This document shows positions 4,181 to 34,319 of a DNA stretch of 35,002 nucleotides, in pieces. How positions within the stretch are numbered: position 1 is the first letter of the stretch; each line of letters opens with the position of its first letter. A model generated the notes under the pieces. That model did not search any database. It had not been told where the DNA came from and was given only the letters and a program-made list of their open reading frames with translations. This DNA is from Gemmatimonadota bacterium (GTDB taxonomy: Bacteria; Gemmatimonadota; Gemmatimonadetes; Gemmatimonadales; GWC2-71-9): contig JAHECN010000012.1 in NCBI GenBank assembly GCA_024641735.1, positions 1-35,002 of the forward strand, given 5' to 3'. Made by a program: the position numbers and the translations under genes.

Positions 4181-4800
4181 GCGCCGGCCTCCGTCTCGCC
4201 TTGGCGAAGGGACGACTCTACGACGCGACCGTAGCGCGACTCGCGGCCGCGGGAATCACGGTCGACGCTGACCCAGGTCGACGGCTGTTGATCCCGACGA
4301 GCAATCCGCTCCTTCAGGTGCTCGTGGTCAAACCCGGCGACGTGCCCGTCTATGTCGAGAATGGCGCCGCCGACCTCGGCGTGACCGGCACGGATGTACT
4401 CCGGGAGTCCGACGCGGACGTTCTGGAGCCTCTGGGATTGGGATTCGGTGCCTGCCGACTCGTCGTCGCGGCCCCAGCGGAGACGCCCTATCCCGGCCTC
4501 GCGCATGGCCGGACCGCCCGGGTGGCCACCAAGTATCCGCGTCTGGCCCGGAACTACTTCTCCTCGATGGGCAGATCGGTCGAGGTCATCATGGTGGGTG
4601 GGAGCGTCGAGGTGGCGCCGCTCCTCGGACTCTCGGATTGGATCGTCGACTTGGTCGACACCGGCGCCACGCTCAAGGCCAACGGGTTGACCGAGCGCGC
4701 CGTGATCCTCGAAAGCGCGGCTGTGCTGGTGGCGAATCGGGCGTCACAGAAATTGAAGCTGGAACAACATCTACGATTGATGCAGAGTCTGGGCGACTAG
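4177..4800 (+). CDS. hisG: ATP phosphoribosyltransferase catalytic subunit (short form)
   Basis: LRLALAKGRLYDATVARLAAAGI, ENGAADLGVTGTDVL, GSVEVAPLLGLSDWIVDLVDTGATLKANGL; 207 aa, no C-terminal regulatory domain. Confidence 0.95.
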   Translation: MSAGLRLALAKGRLYDATVARLAAAGITVDADPGRRLLIPTSNPLLQVLVVKPGDVPVYVENGAADLGVTGTDVLRESDADVLEPLGLGFGACRLVVAAPAETPYPGLAHGRTARVATKYPRLARNYFSSMGRSVEVIMVGGSVEVAPLLGLSDWIVDLVDTGATLKANGLTERAVILESAAVLVANRASQKLKLEQHLRLMQSLGD

Positions 4801-4865
4801 ACGAGAGACGAGAGAAGAGACAAGCTGCACGCTCCAATCTCTTCTCTCGTTTCTCCTCTCTCTAT
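4801..4865. repeat. GA/CT inverted repeat (copy A) filling the convergent hisG/GT2 gap; possible bidirectional terminator
   Basis: acgagagaagaga (4808-4820) and tctcttctctcgt (4838-4850) are perfect 13-nt reverse complements around a 17-nt loop; outer arms imperfectly pair (GA-rich left, CT-rich right). Confidence 0.85.
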
Positions 4866-6529: not shown

Positions 6530-7854
6530 GGCCAGCGAATGTCGACGAAGGTGCGTCGGCGCAGGTCCGCCATGAAGGTGCGGAGACCAAGTTCCTTGGC
6601 CAAACGGCCACGGATGTTCTCGCGCACGACGTCGAATTGCAGCGGTCCCTCGGCGGTCCGCCCCGTGACCTTGGCGATCCCCCACTTGGTCCGCAGCGGG
6701 TCGCCGGAGACGGGAAGGAAGAACGTGCGCGAGACCTTGCCGGAGTCCACCCCAGCAAGCGCCGCAGCATACGCGGGAGGCAACGAATCGGTATAGATCC
6801 CGGCGATGTCGCGCTCTTCTGCCTCGTCGTGATAGATCCGCTGCAGCGAGTCAAACGAGGCGCCCTTGGCGAGCGCGGCCGCGATCGCGTCGACCTTCAC
6901 CTTGGCCGCCAAGGCACCCGTGGAGTCCATCTCGGGAATGATCAGAATGTGGCGCGCCTGCACCTCGGTCGGTTGCCGGCGGGTCACCTGGATCACATGG
7001 TATCCAAAGGGTGTCTCAACGGCATTCGAGATGACTCCGACCGGCAACGAGAAGGCCGCCTGTTCGAATTCACGCACCATCCGGCCACGGCGGAAGAACC
7101 CGAGGTCCCCACCCGTTTCCTTGGTGCCGTCCATCCCGAAACGCCGTGCCGCAACGGCAAAATCGGCCCCCTTGCGCAGCTCCCCGATGATGGAATCCGC
7201 CAACGCTTTGGCCGTCGCCTTCGCGGCCGGAGTCGGCTGAGGTGTCACAATGATCTGCCGCAGCGAGACCGAGGCGGGACGAACCCCCAGCAAGCCTGCC
7301 GTGGCATAGGCATCGTAGTAGGCACGGACTTCCTTCTCTGTCGGCGCCAAATCTTTCAGCATGCCGCGCTGGCGGAGCGACGTCTCGTACCGTTCGCGAT
7401 ACAATTCCTTGCGCTGCTGGTCGACGAGCCAGCGTCGATACTCGTCCATCGAATTGAACCCGATGCCACGCATTTCCGCTTCGAACTCGGCGGTCGTCTT
7501 GTACTGCCGGCGCTGGTTCGCAAAGACACGATCCACCGTTTCAGTCACCTCTTGTTCGGTGACCTGAATCGTCGTGTCCTTGATCGCTTGGAGGTAGAGC
7601 AATTCCTCATTCACCAAAGTGTCAATCAAGGAACGACGATACGCCATCTGGCCTGCTGCATCCTTCGGGACTCCGGCCACCGGATTGTTCTGGTTCTGGT
7701 AGAACCGCTCCTCCACATGGGAGAAGAGAATCGGCGTGGTCCCGACGACCGCCACGATACGATCCACCGGCTCGCCCGCTTGTGCGGCGAGCCCGTGGGC
7801 TGCACCCCCGAAGAGGAGTGCAGCACAGGTGATGGCGGCGGCGCGCTGGATCAC
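6526..7854 (-). CDS. SurA-like periplasmic peptidyl-prolyl isomerase (parvulin domains)
   Basis: Signal peptide then DRIVAVVGTTPILFSHVEER (SurA N-domain); PPIC domain GADFAVAARRFGMDGTKETGGDLGFFRRGRMVREFEQAAFSLPVGVIS..TPFGYHVIQV; second, weaker PPIC-like region. GTG start; adjacent to pdxA as in E. coli surA-pdxA. Confidence 0.9.
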   Translation of the reverse strand: MIQRAAAITCAALLFGGAAHGLAAQAGEPVDRIVAVVGTTPILFSHVEERFYQNQNNPVAGVPKDAAGQMAYRRSLIDTLVNEELLYLQAIKDTTIQVTEQEVTETVDRVFANQRRQYKTTAEFEAEMRGIGFNSMDEYRRWLVDQQRKELYRERYETSLRQRGMLKDLAPTEKEVRAYYDAYATAGLLGVRPASVSLRQIIVTPQPTPAAKATAKALADSIIGELRKGADFAVAARRFGMDGTKETGGDLGFFRRGRMVREFEQAAFSLPVGVISNAVETPFGYHVIQVTRRQPTEVQARHILIIPEMDSTGALAAKVKVDAIAAALAKGASFDSLQRIYHDEAEERDIAGIYTDSLPPAYAAALAGVDSGKVSRTFFLPVSGDPLRTKWGIAKVTGRTAEGPLQFDVVRENIRGRLAKELGLRTFMADLRRRTFVDIRWP

Positions 7855-17049: not shown

Positions 17050-17385
17050 ATGGCCGACCTCGACGATTTCAACGCGTTCCGCACCAAGATGAACGACACG
17101 ATTCTTGGTGCGGGCAACTTGACCATCAACCGCTTCTTTGCGCTGGACAATCGTGCCTACGAGGCGGGCGCCCTCGGGACCAAGCAGAAGGAGATGCTTG
17201 GCCTGGTGGCGTCGATGGTCCTGCGCTGCGATGACTGCATCACCTACCACGTGGTCCGATGTCACGAGGAAGGCGTCACGCGCGAAGAGTTCCTGGAAAT
17301 CTTTTCGGTGGGATTGGTGGTCGGCGGGAGCATCGTGATTCCGCATCTCAGACGGGCGATGGAGCGACTGGAAGAACTGACCTGA
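17050..17385 (+). CDS. Carboxymuconolactone decarboxylase / AhpD-like protein
   Basis: 111 aa; LGLVASMVLRCDDCITYHVVRCHEEGVTREEFLEIFSVGLVVGG with CxxCxxxH redox motif. Confidence 0.9.
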   Translation: MADLDDFNAFRTKMNDTILGAGNLTINRFFALDNRAYEAGALGTKQKEMLGLVASMVLRCDDCITYHVVRCHEEGVTREEFLEIFSVGLVVGGSIVIPHLRRAMERLEELT

Positions 17386-17459
17386 AGAGAGAAGAGAGAC
17401 GAGAGAGGAGAGAGGAGTCTGTATTCTCTTCTCTCGTCTCTCCTTTCTCTTCTCTCTTG
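17384..17459. repeat. GA/CT inverted repeat (copy B) filling the convergent AhpD-like/EamA gap
   Basis: Left arm gaagagagaagagagacgagagaggagagaggag; right arm ctcttctctcgtctctcctttctcttctctctt. By eye 29/33 complementary with an 8-nt loop (tctgtatt). Confidence 0.88.
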
Positions 17460-18365
17460 TTAGCCCTCCGCCGCCGGCACCACCTTCTGTCTGGTCGCCA
17501 ACACGCCGCCGATGATCAACACTCCCCCTATCAGATGGGTGATGCCGGGGCGCTCGCCGAGTCCGACCATGGCGATCGCCGTGGCCACGAGGGGCACCAG
17601 CGTGTTGTAGGCCACGGTGCGTGCGGCACCGAGCTCGGCCACGCCGCGATTCCAGAGGATGTACGCGGCGACCAGCGACAGGAGACCGGCGTAGAGCAAG
17701 CCGCCCCACCCGACCCACGTCACTGCACTCCAATCCGTCCGCATCAACTCCGGCCACCCCAGGATGACCAATCCCGGCGTCCCCGTGTACATCGTCCACG
17801 CGGTGATCCGGAGCGACGAGATCGGGAGCCGCCAGTGCCGGAGGAGCAGCGTGTAGGCGGCCCATGTGACCACCGCGCCGAGCAGCAACAGGTCACCGGC
17901 ACGGATGCTGGTGTCGATCGTGGCGCCACGCGTCAGAATGACGATCACGACACCGACGGTGGCGATCGCGACGGCGAGCCGTTGCCGCAGCGTGGTCACT
18001 TCGATCCGGAGCAACCAAGTCGCCAGGACCACAATGGCGGGCATCCCGGCAAGGATGAGCGCGGTCTTTGTGGCTGACGTGCGGGCCAATCCTTCGATGA
18101 AGCAGAGCTGGTACAAGGTGTTTCCGATCAACCCCAGCCAGATCAGCTTGGTCCGGGCCCCGGGCGGGAGGGGTGTCGCCGGTTCGCGCCGCCGGAGGAT
18201 CAGCCAGAGGATCGCCGTGGCCAGCAAGAACCGGAGGGCGGTAAAGGCCAGCGGTTCGAGCTCCGCGAAGGCCAGCTTGGTCGCCGTGAAATTCCCGCCC
18301 CAGAAGAGGGTGACCAGCAACATCCCGGTGGACGCGGAGAGACGAGGGGGGGCGGAGTCTGACAT
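17460..18365 (-). CDS. EamA/DMT-family transporter
   Basis: [57 protein letters not shown]...; ~10 TM; second EamA repeat [19 protein letters not shown]. Confidence 0.92.
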
Positions 18366-18370
18366 GCCCG

Positions 18371-18376
18371 AATATA
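18371..18376 (-). promoter_or_regulatory. -10-like TATATT for the EamA transporter, 5 nt before ATG
   Basis: aatata at 18371-18376 (TATATT on minus), then cgggc, then ATG (18365). Confidence 0.5.
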
Positions 18377-18496
18377 GGAGAAAGGAGAAAAGAGAGCGGA
18401 GAACCGTTCGAAGGTGCCCCTGAGGGTGCCACGTCGGACCGGCCACCGCCCTCCTCTCGCTTCTCTCCTCTCTCTTCTCTCCCCTCGCCTCTCTCC

Positions 18497-18502
18497 TATA
18501 TT
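18497..18502 (+). promoter_or_regulatory. -10-like TATATT for lepA, 6 nt before ATG
   Basis: tatatt at 18497-18502, gccgcc, ATG at 18509; no SD between. Confidence 0.5.
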
Positions 18503-25866: not shown

Positions 25867-26553
25867 GTGATTCGCTTTACCAAGGTCTCGAAGCACTACC
25901 CGACCGGCACGACGCCGGCCCTCGACGACGTGAACTTCCACGTCGCGCGCGGGGAGTTCGTCTTCATGACGGGACACTCCGGCGCGGGCAAATCGTCCAT
26001 CCTCAAATTGATGTACGGGGACGAACGCCCGAGCAGCGGTGACGTGCGGGTGTCAGGCTTCCACATCGGCACGTTGACACGCGATGAAGTCCCGCGTCTG
26101 CGCCGCCGGCTCGGCATCGTCTTCCAGGACTTTTCGCTCCTCGAGGATCGGACGGCCGCCGAAAACATCGCCTTTGCCCTCGAGGTCACCGGATCCCGCG
26201 TGGACATGATTCCGGCGCGCGTCACCAAGGTCCTGGCGCAGGTCGGACTCCTCGCGAAGGCCGAGGCGTTTCCGCGCGAGCTCTCCGGCGGCGAGCAGCA
26301 GCGCGTGTCCATCGCCCGCGCCTTGGTGAATGATCCGCCGATCCTGCTGGCCGACGAGCCCACCGGCAATCTCGACGAGCGCGCCACACGCGGCGTCTAT
26401 CAGCTGCTCTTGGACATCAACGCCCAGGGGACGGTGGTCGTCATGGCGACGCACAACCTGGATCTGGTCCGGTTCGGAGGACAGCGCACGCTGGAGCTTC
26501 GCGACGGCAAGCTGGTCTTCGATTCGGGCGTCGATGTGGGAGATGACGCATGA
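25867..26553 (+). CDS. ftsE: Cell division ATP-binding protein FtsE
   Basis: [51 protein letters not shown]...[34 protein letters not shown]. Confidence 0.96.
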
Positions 26554-27419
26554 ACTTGCTCCTGCGCGAAGCCTTGATCGCCTTCCGGCGCACGCGGACA
26601 CTCTCCGTACTATCCATCACGACGATCGCCTTCGCCCTGTTCGTGACCGGACTCTTTGGACTCGTCGCCCTCAACATGCGCTCGGCGCTCCGCAACGTGG
26701 CCGAACGGGTGGAGATCGTGGCCTTCGTCTATCGTGGGACGCCGTCGATGCAGTTGACCGCCGCGAGCTCCGACATCGCCGCCTTCCCTGAAGTCCTCGA
26801 AGTCCAGTACGTCTCCGAGGAAGAGGCGTTGGTCCGTGCCCGCCGAGACTTGGTCGAGTTTCAGGAAGCGTATCAGGACCTGGAGATCAACCCGCTTCCC
26901 CCGTCGCTCGAGATCCGACTCCGACCCGAGTACCGCGACGCCAAGCATGCGGGAGACGTCGCCGAGCGCCTGCATGGCTTCGAGTTCGTGGAGGACGTCC
27001 GCTACGGACGCGATTGGGTGGAACGCCTCGATGCCCTCCGGCAGATCGCAGGATTCGTCGGGCTCGCGATCGGTGCGGCCTTCGGTCTCGTGAGCATCGT
27101 GATCATCGGCGTCACCATCCGCATGACCGTCCTGCATCGCGCCCGCGAGATCCGCATCATGCGTCTGGTGGGAGCCACGGATTGGTTTATCCGTGGACCG
27201 TTCCTGTTGGAAGGCGCCCTCAAGGGCCTCATCGGTGGCATCCTCGCGGCCATCCTCTGTGGCGTCGTCTTCGGCGCCTTTGAGGCCGGCAATTTCGGGC
27301 TTGGCATGGGACTCACGTTCTTCGGCCCGCTGGAAGTCGTGTTCCTGATCGTCTTCGGTGTGCTCCTCGGACTCACCGGCTCGCTGGTGAGTGTGGGCCG
27401 GCATCTCAAGAAAGTCTGA
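26550..27419 (+). CDS. ftsX: Cell division permease FtsX
   Basis: [47 protein letters not shown]..., FtsX extracellular domain and 4 TM; ATGA overlap with ftsE. Confidence 0.95.
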
Positions 27420-27420
27420 T

Positions 27421-27526
27421 ATGCGAGAGGAGAGAGGAGGGAGGAGAGAAGCGAACGGACGGGTGGGGTGGCGTCCACCGCTCCGTCGCGTACACCTCCT
27501 CTCCTTTCTCTTTTCTCTTCTCTCGG
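27421..27526. repeat. GA/CT inverted repeat (copy D) at the ftsX/envC junction, overlapping the envC-like 5' end
   Basis: GA arm atgcgagaggagagaggagggaggagagaag; CT arm cctcctctcctttctcttttctcttctctcgg; central imperfect pairing gcgaacgga/tccgtcgc and ggtgg-cgt-ccacc. Confidence 0.8.
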
Positions 27527-28683
27527 TTGCGCCGCTCGCCGCCCAATCCAATCCCGACCTCGAGGCCTCCAGGCGTCGACTCGAGCAGATCCGCCAAGAG
27601 CGGGAACAACTCCAGCAGCAGCAGCGGCGGATCAGCGGCCAAGTGAGCGATGTCGGCGCTGCGCTCCGCAATATCGAACGCCAACGCGACGCCACAACCC
27701 GCCTCGTCGGTGAAATCGAACGGCAGATCGGGGGACTCGGCTCCGAACTCGAACGCTCCGCCGCGGAGATGACCCTTGCGCAGGACAACCTTGCCGACCG
27801 CAAGGCAGTGTTGCGCCGCCGACTCGCCGACATCTACAAGCGCGGACCGCTCTACACCTTCCAAGTGCTGCTGGCCGCCGAGACCTTCAGCGATTTGCTG
27901 ACACGGTACAAGTATCTCTATCTGACCTCGCGCCAGGACCGCGCGTTGGTGTCAGACGTTGAGCGACTGACGGCGAGTGTGCGCGGGAAGCGGGACGAGC
28001 TCCTGGGGATCCAGACCGAGCTGGACCGACGCCGTTCGGAGCGCGAGGCCGAACTCGAGCGCTTCGCCAATCTGGCGGACGAGCGGCAATCGCAATTGCG
28101 AAACCTGCAGCGCACCTCAGCCCAGACCCAACAACGGCTCACGACGCTCGAACGGGACGAAGCACGCGTCAACGACCTGCTCGCCTCACTGGAACGGGCG
28201 CGACGGACGGCCGAAGCCAACCGCACAGCGCGCCCCGGAACGGCCACGCCGCCGAGTGCCGGCAAGACGCTCTCGACCGCGGACCTCGGCAAGCTCGAGT
28301 GGCCCGTCGAGGGCGACATTCTCTTTGAATTCGGGCGGGATACGCTGAAGAGCGGGGCCGTGGTCCGCAATCAGGGGATCGGAATCGGCGCCCCGGTCGG
28401 CACGTCGGTTAAGGCCGTGGAGGCGGGAACCGCTGTCCTCGTTCGCCGTCTCTCCACCTACGGACTCTCCGTCTTCGTGCAACATGGGGATGGCTATTAC
28501 TCACTGTACATGCAATTGCAGAGTGCGTCGGTCACCGAGGGACAACAGGTGACGCGCGGACAGGCGATTGGAACGGTGGGCGGCGCCAATTCGGATCACG
28601 GCCCCCACCTCTACTTCGAAATCCGGGGCGATCAGCAGATCGCGCTGGACCCGCTCGTCTGGCTTCGTCGGCGCAGCAAGTAG
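27421..28683 (+). CDS. EnvC-like murein hydrolase activator (coiled coil + degenerate LytM/M23 domain)
   Basis: Signal peptide ...RRVHLLSFLFSLLSVAPLAAQ, long coiled coil LEQIREQ-type region, C-terminal LytM fold ending HLYFEIRGDQQIALDPLVWL; downstream of ftsEX. Alternative GTG start at 27463. Confidence 0.88.
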   Translation: MREERGGRREANGRVGWRPPLRRVHLLSFLFSLLSVAPLAAQSNPDLEASRRRLEQIRQEREQLQQQQRRISGQVSDVGAALRNIERQRDATTRLVGEIERQIGGLGSELERSAAEMTLAQDNLADRKAVLRRRLADIYKRGPLYTFQVLLAAETFSDLLTRYKYLYLTSRQDRALVSDVERLTASVRGKRDELLGIQTELDRRRSEREAELERFANLADERQSQLRNLQRTSAQTQQRLTTLERDEARVNDLLASLERARRTAEANRTARPGTATPPSAGKTLSTADLGKLEWPVEGDILFEFGRDTLKSGAVVRNQGIGIGAPVGTSVKAVEAGTAVLVRRLSTYGLSVFVQHGDGYYSLYMQLQSASVTEGQQVTRGQAIGTVGGANSDHGPHLYFEIRGDQQIALDPLVWLRRRSK

Positions 28684-34212: not shown

Positions 34213-34220
34213 ATGGTCGC

Positions 34221-34319
34221 GAGTCGTGAGTCGTTGGTCGTGGGAGGGTCAATGCGCATGCCGCGCGACGAGATCCACACTGCTGAGGTAGCCCGCTGAA
34301 AACTCACGACTCACGACTC
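34221..34319. repeat. Inverted repeat built of tandem heptamer GAGTCGT / ACGACTC
   Basis: gagtcgtgagtcgt (34221-34234) is an exact reverse complement of acgactcacgactc (34306-34319); 71-nt spacer. Confidence 0.85.

Follow-up and report, generated by a model that had tools for sequence, protein, structure and literature searches.

A dispersed tandem-heptamer hairpin as the probable source of the EnvC signal peptide core in an uncultured Gemmatimonadota bacterium

Introduction

MITEs are elements of fixed sequence characterised by terminal inverted repeats, a target-site duplication and mobilisation in trans by a transposase. In Yersinia, the intergenic palindromic repeat YPAL/RU-2 has been found fused in frame to coding sequence, and its hydrophobic translation forms part of the predicted signal peptide of YPO1552 (PMC2229807). 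That repeat is a fixed-sequence MITE within a putative protein thought to be newly formed (PMC2229807), whereas in the locus described here the signal peptide of a conserved division protein appears to have been replaced, in many species and by different words. The palindromic elements of Rickettsia are accommodated in frame inside conserved genes (PMC10969869, PMC2229807), but they form families of 105–150 bp with a conserved peptide, and have neither period-7 words nor a tie to signal peptides.

A close counterpart in repeat structure is the GGGAATC heptamer family of Xanthomonas, which is dispersed, tandem and mostly intergenic, includes 70–75 inverted array pairs, and consists of one G-rich word with quadruplex potential, with 16% of repeats between convergent genes; the available part of that report describes no signal-peptide reading (PMC4692102). 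The repeats of the genome analysed here, G000, share the tandem 7-nt units and the inverted pairing of arrays. However, the Gemmatimonadota words vary from species to species, a single genome can contain more than one, and the G000 word, RRGAGAG, lacks the regular GGG runs of a quadruplex, which some words of its relatives (GGGGGAC) would have. REP/RAYT palindromes are 20–40 bp long and carry a GTAG or CGTC tag (PMC3733652), but the G000 arms are, by eye, tandem heptamers without a fixed tag. Inverted arms as in MITEs are present, but the copies share a word and not a fixed sequence.

No description of hairpins of this kind in Gemmatimonadota was found in the literature, and a paper on chromosome architecture reports repeats of at least 90 bp, with heptamer hairpins not among them. 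Signal peptides derived from repeats have precedents, as do paired heptamer repeats; it is their recurrence with word turnover that looks new.

Results

The window, which is the whole stretch of 35,002 nt analysed, corresponds to contig G000:C93 in the genome of an uncultured bacterium (2.75 Mb, 245 contigs) whose named relatives are Gemmatimonadales genomes. EnvC is an FtsEX-linked LytM activator. An EnvC-like gene with an M23 domain lies directly 3' of ftsE-ftsX in the window, as expected of an EnvC-like FtsEX partner, and the orthologues in relatives are also placed behind ftsX. Gene order (ftsE-ftsX-envC) and the M23 domain are thus those of EnvC, but the signal peptide in G000 differs in apparently being derived from a repeat. 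The last M23 motif reads HLYFE in place of HLHFE (by eye), and the M23/LytM domain is probably degenerate judging by its sequence. The features of the locus are:

25867–26553, + strand: ftsE-like ABC ATPase (Pfam ABC_tran, 2.8e-34)
26550–27419, + strand: ftsX-like permease (Pfam FtsX_ECD, 6.7e-12; FtsX, 1.5e-11), stop codon TGA at 27417–27419
27421–28683, + strand: EnvC-like gene, coiled coil and M23/LytM domain (Pfam Peptidase_M23, 1.1e-24)
27423–27455, + strand: GA (purine) arm of the heptamer hairpin, probably translated as the charged n-region REERGGRREA; RNA stem 27425–27448
27456–27492, + strand: hairpin loop of 37 nt, containing the alternative start GTG 27463
27493–27525, + strand: CT (pyrimidine) arm, hydrophobic core HLLSFLFSLLS; RNA stem 27499–27522
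27526–27546, + strand: c-region VAPLAAQ, with a putative signal peptidase I site between A-A and Q, proposed from the sequence and from the orthologues, most of whose signal peptides end in AQ or SQ at the same place

The two arms flank the start of the EnvC-like gene and lie inside its reading frame. Matches to a 24-nt purine tract are abundant in the window (115 overlapping, against a shuffled mean of 1.2). At the DNA level, the 168 nt before the mature start have an inverted-repeat score of 12.0, which is higher than in all 60 dinucleotide shuffles (z 4.4) and in eight control windows of the same locus; a default repeat finder did not return the junction pair because its DNA arms are imperfect complements. 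As RNA, positions 27415–27530 fold at −64.8 kcal/mol (z −5.6), with 24 pairs, some of them G-U, joining 27425–27448 to 27499–27522. The first-pass annotation had translated the CT arm in frame as HLLSFLFSLLS followed by VAPLAA and Q, and its coordinates, frame and translation are all correct; the charged N-terminus that it read from the GA arm is also found, the gene reading MREERGGRREANGRVGWRPPLRRVHLLSFLFSLLSVAPLAAQ from ATG 27421. With a peak hydropathy of 2.4, an n-region net charge of +3 and the VAPLAAQ motif, the N-terminus has the features of a Sec signal peptide, and it is probable that the CT arm of a dispersed hairpin serves as the export signal core of EnvC in G000.

The repeat family was characterised in a sample of 868 kb (32%) of G000 and 400 kb of G009, the latter partly chosen for holding matches. 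Purine tracts of 27 nt with at most one mismatch gave 1587 overlapping matches in the G000 genome, and the first 572 kb contained 41 tracts versus 2 in random sequence of equal dinucleotide frequencies. Where purine and pyrimidine tracts are paired, the purine arm always comes first (16/16 pairs in 572 kb, 18/18 in 868 kb of G000). A purine-loop-pyrimidine arrangement stays the same on reverse complementation, so the hairpin is alike from both strands. The repeat unit in G000 is the heptamer RRGAGAG, with an identity of 0.74 at lag 7 and 0.73 at lag 14; from lag 2 to lag 30 there is essentially no signal other than at 7 and its multiples. The samples yielded 47 (G000) and 38 (G009) lag-7 tracts, compared with about 3 (runs of N) and 0, respectively, at nearly every lag other than the multiples of 7. 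Further heptamer hairpins in G000 are built from GGAGAAC, GAGTCGT and GGATGAT. An inverted repeat at 34216–34317 of the window, GTCGCGAGTCGTGAGT and ACTCACGACTCACGAC, comes from GAGTCGT.

The heptamer hairpins in G000 are mostly intergenic and concentrated between convergent genes. With junctions classed by a simple, and therefore crude, codon-usage gene caller, inverted repeats scoring at least 14.5 occupied 21/85 convergent, 20/527 co-directional and 2/81 divergent junctions of the sample, the difference between the first two classes having a p of 3e-9. From this positioning, a terminator-like use in convergent junctions is probably the primary role and the signal peptide a secondary one. 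Two copies in the window lie at such sites, and the enrichment suggests that they are bidirectional terminators:

4799–4863, no strand assigned: GA/CT heptamer hairpin between convergent genes
17384–17461, no strand assigned: GA/CT heptamer hairpin between convergent genes

The first-pass annotation considered this class of repeat pre-adapted to encode n- and h-regions, a view that the composition of the arms bears out. In G000, a Kyte-Doolittle mean of at least 1.6 over 10 residues is attained by 52% of CT-arm frames and by 2.5% of random genomic frames, a roughly 20-fold difference, while GA arms never reach 1.6 and have a net charge of +1.4 per 10 residues. The CT arms encode 32% Leu, 32% Ser, 13% Phe and 13% Pro, and the GA arms 32% Arg, 31% Glu, 13% Gly and 13% Lys. 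A stricter cut-off, the 25th percentile of real signal peptides, was passed by 1/54 frames and gave no separation, and a range of thresholds was used instead. Across the genetic code, the hydropathy of a codon and that of its reverse complement are correlated at −0.59; an in-frame hairpin with its hydrophilic arm first therefore tends to read as charged and then hydrophobic. The signal peptides made from hairpins are slightly less hydrophobic than the others (median peak 2.26 versus 2.60). No other clear arm-made signal peptide was found in the 868 kb of G000, so this usage is rare.

The search for relatives covered 61 genomes (G000 and 60 others), of which 52 loci were used to judge the junction. 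A match to mature EnvC was present in 61/61 genomes, in a few of them to the M23 domain only. Within the genus the mature protein is 60–73% identical and the signal peptides are unrelated; a comparison with 51 orthologues, of the kind that the first-pass annotation had proposed, likewise showed a conserved mature part and a signal peptide that is not conserved. The junction inverted repeat exceeded all 60 shuffles in 12/52 orthologues, 11 of them with a score of at least 12 and one, G042, marginal at 10.5. A score of at least 14 was reached at 9–10 of the 52 junctions, and the highest score in about 400 control windows drawn from these loci was 13. In three further loci (G008, G035 and G050) the signal-peptide region contains the word, but this test detected no complete partner arm; in G008 and G050 only the 3' arm is present, as the signal peptide. 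The remaining 37 orthologues have no hairpin. Where the repeat is absent the junction is tight: in L031 a GTG start overlaps the ftsX stop and is followed by an ordinary signal peptide. The near relatives G004 and G007 lack an arm, and their signal peptides are unrelated.

In G035 (L050) the EnvC N-terminus is proline-rich (PPFPVPPSPFPTRLAAQ) and comes from the GTTCCCC word of that genome. It is not hydrophobic, and not every occupied junction therefore gives a credible signal peptide; the export signal may have been lost, another start may be used, or there may be an assembly problem. The mature match begins 234 nt from the contig end and the word matches on both strands within that stretch, where a hairpin is possible.

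Mapped on a tree of FtsX and mature EnvC, the hairpin requires eight gains or losses, of which well supported branches force seven. In one clade all five genomes have the hairpin, in several different words. This pattern could reflect repeated insertion or an old hairpin with word turnover, as gains and losses are inseparable on the tree, and no near-identical pair of genomes with an empty and a filled site was found.

The words at the junction, with matches counted across 27 to 33 genomes per word, are as follows:

G000: RRGAGAG
G001: GAGACGA (matches to the GAGACGA triple: 246 in G001, 107 in G009, 88 in G003, 62 in G008, 0 in 26/33 genomes)
G009: GGTGAGA
G019: CTTGACG
G022: GGCGGTAAG (89 matches in G022, at most 3 elsewhere)
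G024 and G034: GGCGTCACGCARA (30 matches in G024, 36 in G034)
G036: GGGGGAC (as GGGGRAC, 25 matches in G036 and 117 in G035)
G040: GACGCACC
G042: GTGCCTCT (26 matches to GTGCCYCY in G042)
G056: GGTAGAT (141 matches in G056, 0 in 26 others)

In at least nine species the junction word is thus the genome's own dispersed repeat, and is absent or rare in most others. The junction copy itself is among the matches, for example in G036 (G036:C84:54369), G022 (G022:C15:3688 and 3731) and G034 (G034:C144:28107). These counts are strong evidence against coincidental codon usage. The phenomenon is not specific to GA/CT words, as other words occupy the same junction in relatives.

A second coding site was found in a PknB-like kinase of G000 (L085 9375–9442), where a hairpin supplies both ERRDERREKR, which follows the kinase domain, and SSSLLSPLS, with which the transmembrane segment begins. 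At the same alignment columns the genus-mates G009 and G008 show DERRET and SLVSRLSS, encoded by GAGACGA, and other relatives lack the repeat there. The words at this site differ mostly by a change of the C of GAGACGA to A or G, as they do in the dispersed families of the genomes. PknB-like kinases are themselves very numerous, with 30–75 matches in each of the ten genomes searched (G000 and genus-mates). Upstream of lepA, both G000 and G009 (L126, about 18015–18110) have a hairpin, in different words. Together the kinase and lepA sites suggest, at the level of sequence, that sites are kept while words turn over. The lepA hairpin of the window is:

18371–18502, no strand assigned: GA/CT hairpin in the divergent junction upstream of lepA

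Discussion

We consider it likely that the junction feature belongs to a dispersed family of tandem-heptamer hairpins, with one array in each direction, and that this copy became the core of the EnvC signal peptide. The hairpin would have inserted into the tight junction of ftsX and envC directly after the start codon, a position that encodes only a signal peptide and at which almost any charged-then-hydrophobic sequence would suffice. With the purine-rich first arm in frame, charged residues would precede a hydrophobic stretch, as in the order of n-region and h-region, and the 3' arm could have taken over as the Sec signal core. The word may later have drifted with the family of its genome, or the site may have been re-occupied, without loss of export.

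How much of the hairpin is translated depends on the start codon. ATG 27421 begins 1 nt past the ftsX TGA and is most likely the start of the EnvC-like gene, but GTG 27463, inside the hairpin, is also in frame; were it used, with or without the GA arm as a Shine-Dalgarno region, only the CT arm would be translated, behind it following a compact signal peptide of 27 residues (GWRPPLRRVHLLSFLFSLLSVAPLAA). This seems unlikely, as in most orthologues, with or without the hairpin, in-frame starts lie no more than about 10 nt from the ftsX stop (mostly −8 to +10; −4 in G001, G006, G007, G019, G028, G036 and G040, for example, and +1 in G000). G009 and G056 have possible start codons within the repeat word itself. 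The AGGAGG of the GA arm lies about 16 nt or more upstream of GTG 27463, which is too far for a normal Shine-Dalgarno sequence, and would be buried in the stem. Because starts stay near the ftsX stop regardless of the hairpin, the GA arm is more likely to be translated than to act in initiation. Exaptation of the repeat as an export signal and/or an initiation region, as first envisaged, is hence supported for the export signal, the mature part being kept while the signal peptide is replaced by the genome's own word, and not supported for the initiation region. The distance from the ftsX stop to the mature start has a median of 145 nt with the hairpin (n = 11) versus 76.5 nt without (n = 32; Mann-Whitney p 1.4e-5, relatedness ignored). 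With starts remaining near the stop while this stretch grows, both arms are probably translated, the purine arm as a charged n-region and the complementary arm as the hydrophobic core.

A structural role in RNA or DNA, such as attenuation, mRNA processing or control of stoichiometry, could instead be what maintains the hairpin, the signal-peptide reading being a by-product of frame. The very stable RNA fold agrees with this, as do the clade of five genomes that all keep a hairpin in differing words and the preference for convergent junctions, which points to a terminator-like role elsewhere. The junction is also occupied (score of at least 14.5) in 10/52 orthologues compared with 20/527 co-directional junctions in G000 (Fisher p 1e-4, relatedness ignored; p 0.003 with seven independent events only, and with a single-genome baseline that is a rough guide). 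However, the 37 orthologues without a hairpin, and the two that keep only the arm encoding the hydrophobic core, do not fit such a role, and the kinase site, being internal to a single reading frame, cannot be explained by the expression ratios of neighbours. A scan for consensus terminators and promoters at the ftsX-envC locus also found no sites. Structure as the reason for maintenance is accordingly doubtful, if a serious contender. Signal peptides are Leu-rich in general, and one rich in Leu, Ser and Phe and written in C/T-rich codons might merely resemble the repeat, but such coincidence is very improbable given that both arms are present, that the words match the repeats of their own genomes in at least nine species, and that G004 and G007, close as they are, have unrelated signal peptides and no arm.

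If EnvC took its signal core from a dispersed hairpin, the case would show concretely how non-coding repeat DNA can be built, time and again, into a conserved protein. A hairpin may be tolerated in signal peptides and membrane anchors because, in frame, it already has the right order of charge and hydrophobicity. With different words occupying one site in many species, the junction amounts to a natural experiment on how loose the requirements for a signal peptide are, and the same experiment bears on the homogenisation of dispersed repeats in bacterial genomes. A broader reading, which is plausible but tentative, is that the heptamer word changes in concert from lineage to lineage, and that the EnvC signal peptide and the kinase membrane segment may be rewritten in the current dialect with function kept through the complementarity of the code.

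Other hairpins in or near genes were also noted. L073, L079 and L171 contain in-gene inverted repeats that are not heptameric. An apparent in-gene hairpin at L077 9953 was set aside, as the long ORF there runs antisense to the likely gene, a thiolase-like ORF on the opposite strand that has the hairpin upstream of it. On the 5' side of this thiolase-like gene there is a hairpin in G000 (L077 9897–10013) and an array in G009 (L134 592–630), in different words. At L075 (about 6800–6900), a GAGTCGT-type hairpin fills a variable loop in the reading frame of an ABC transporter ATPase.
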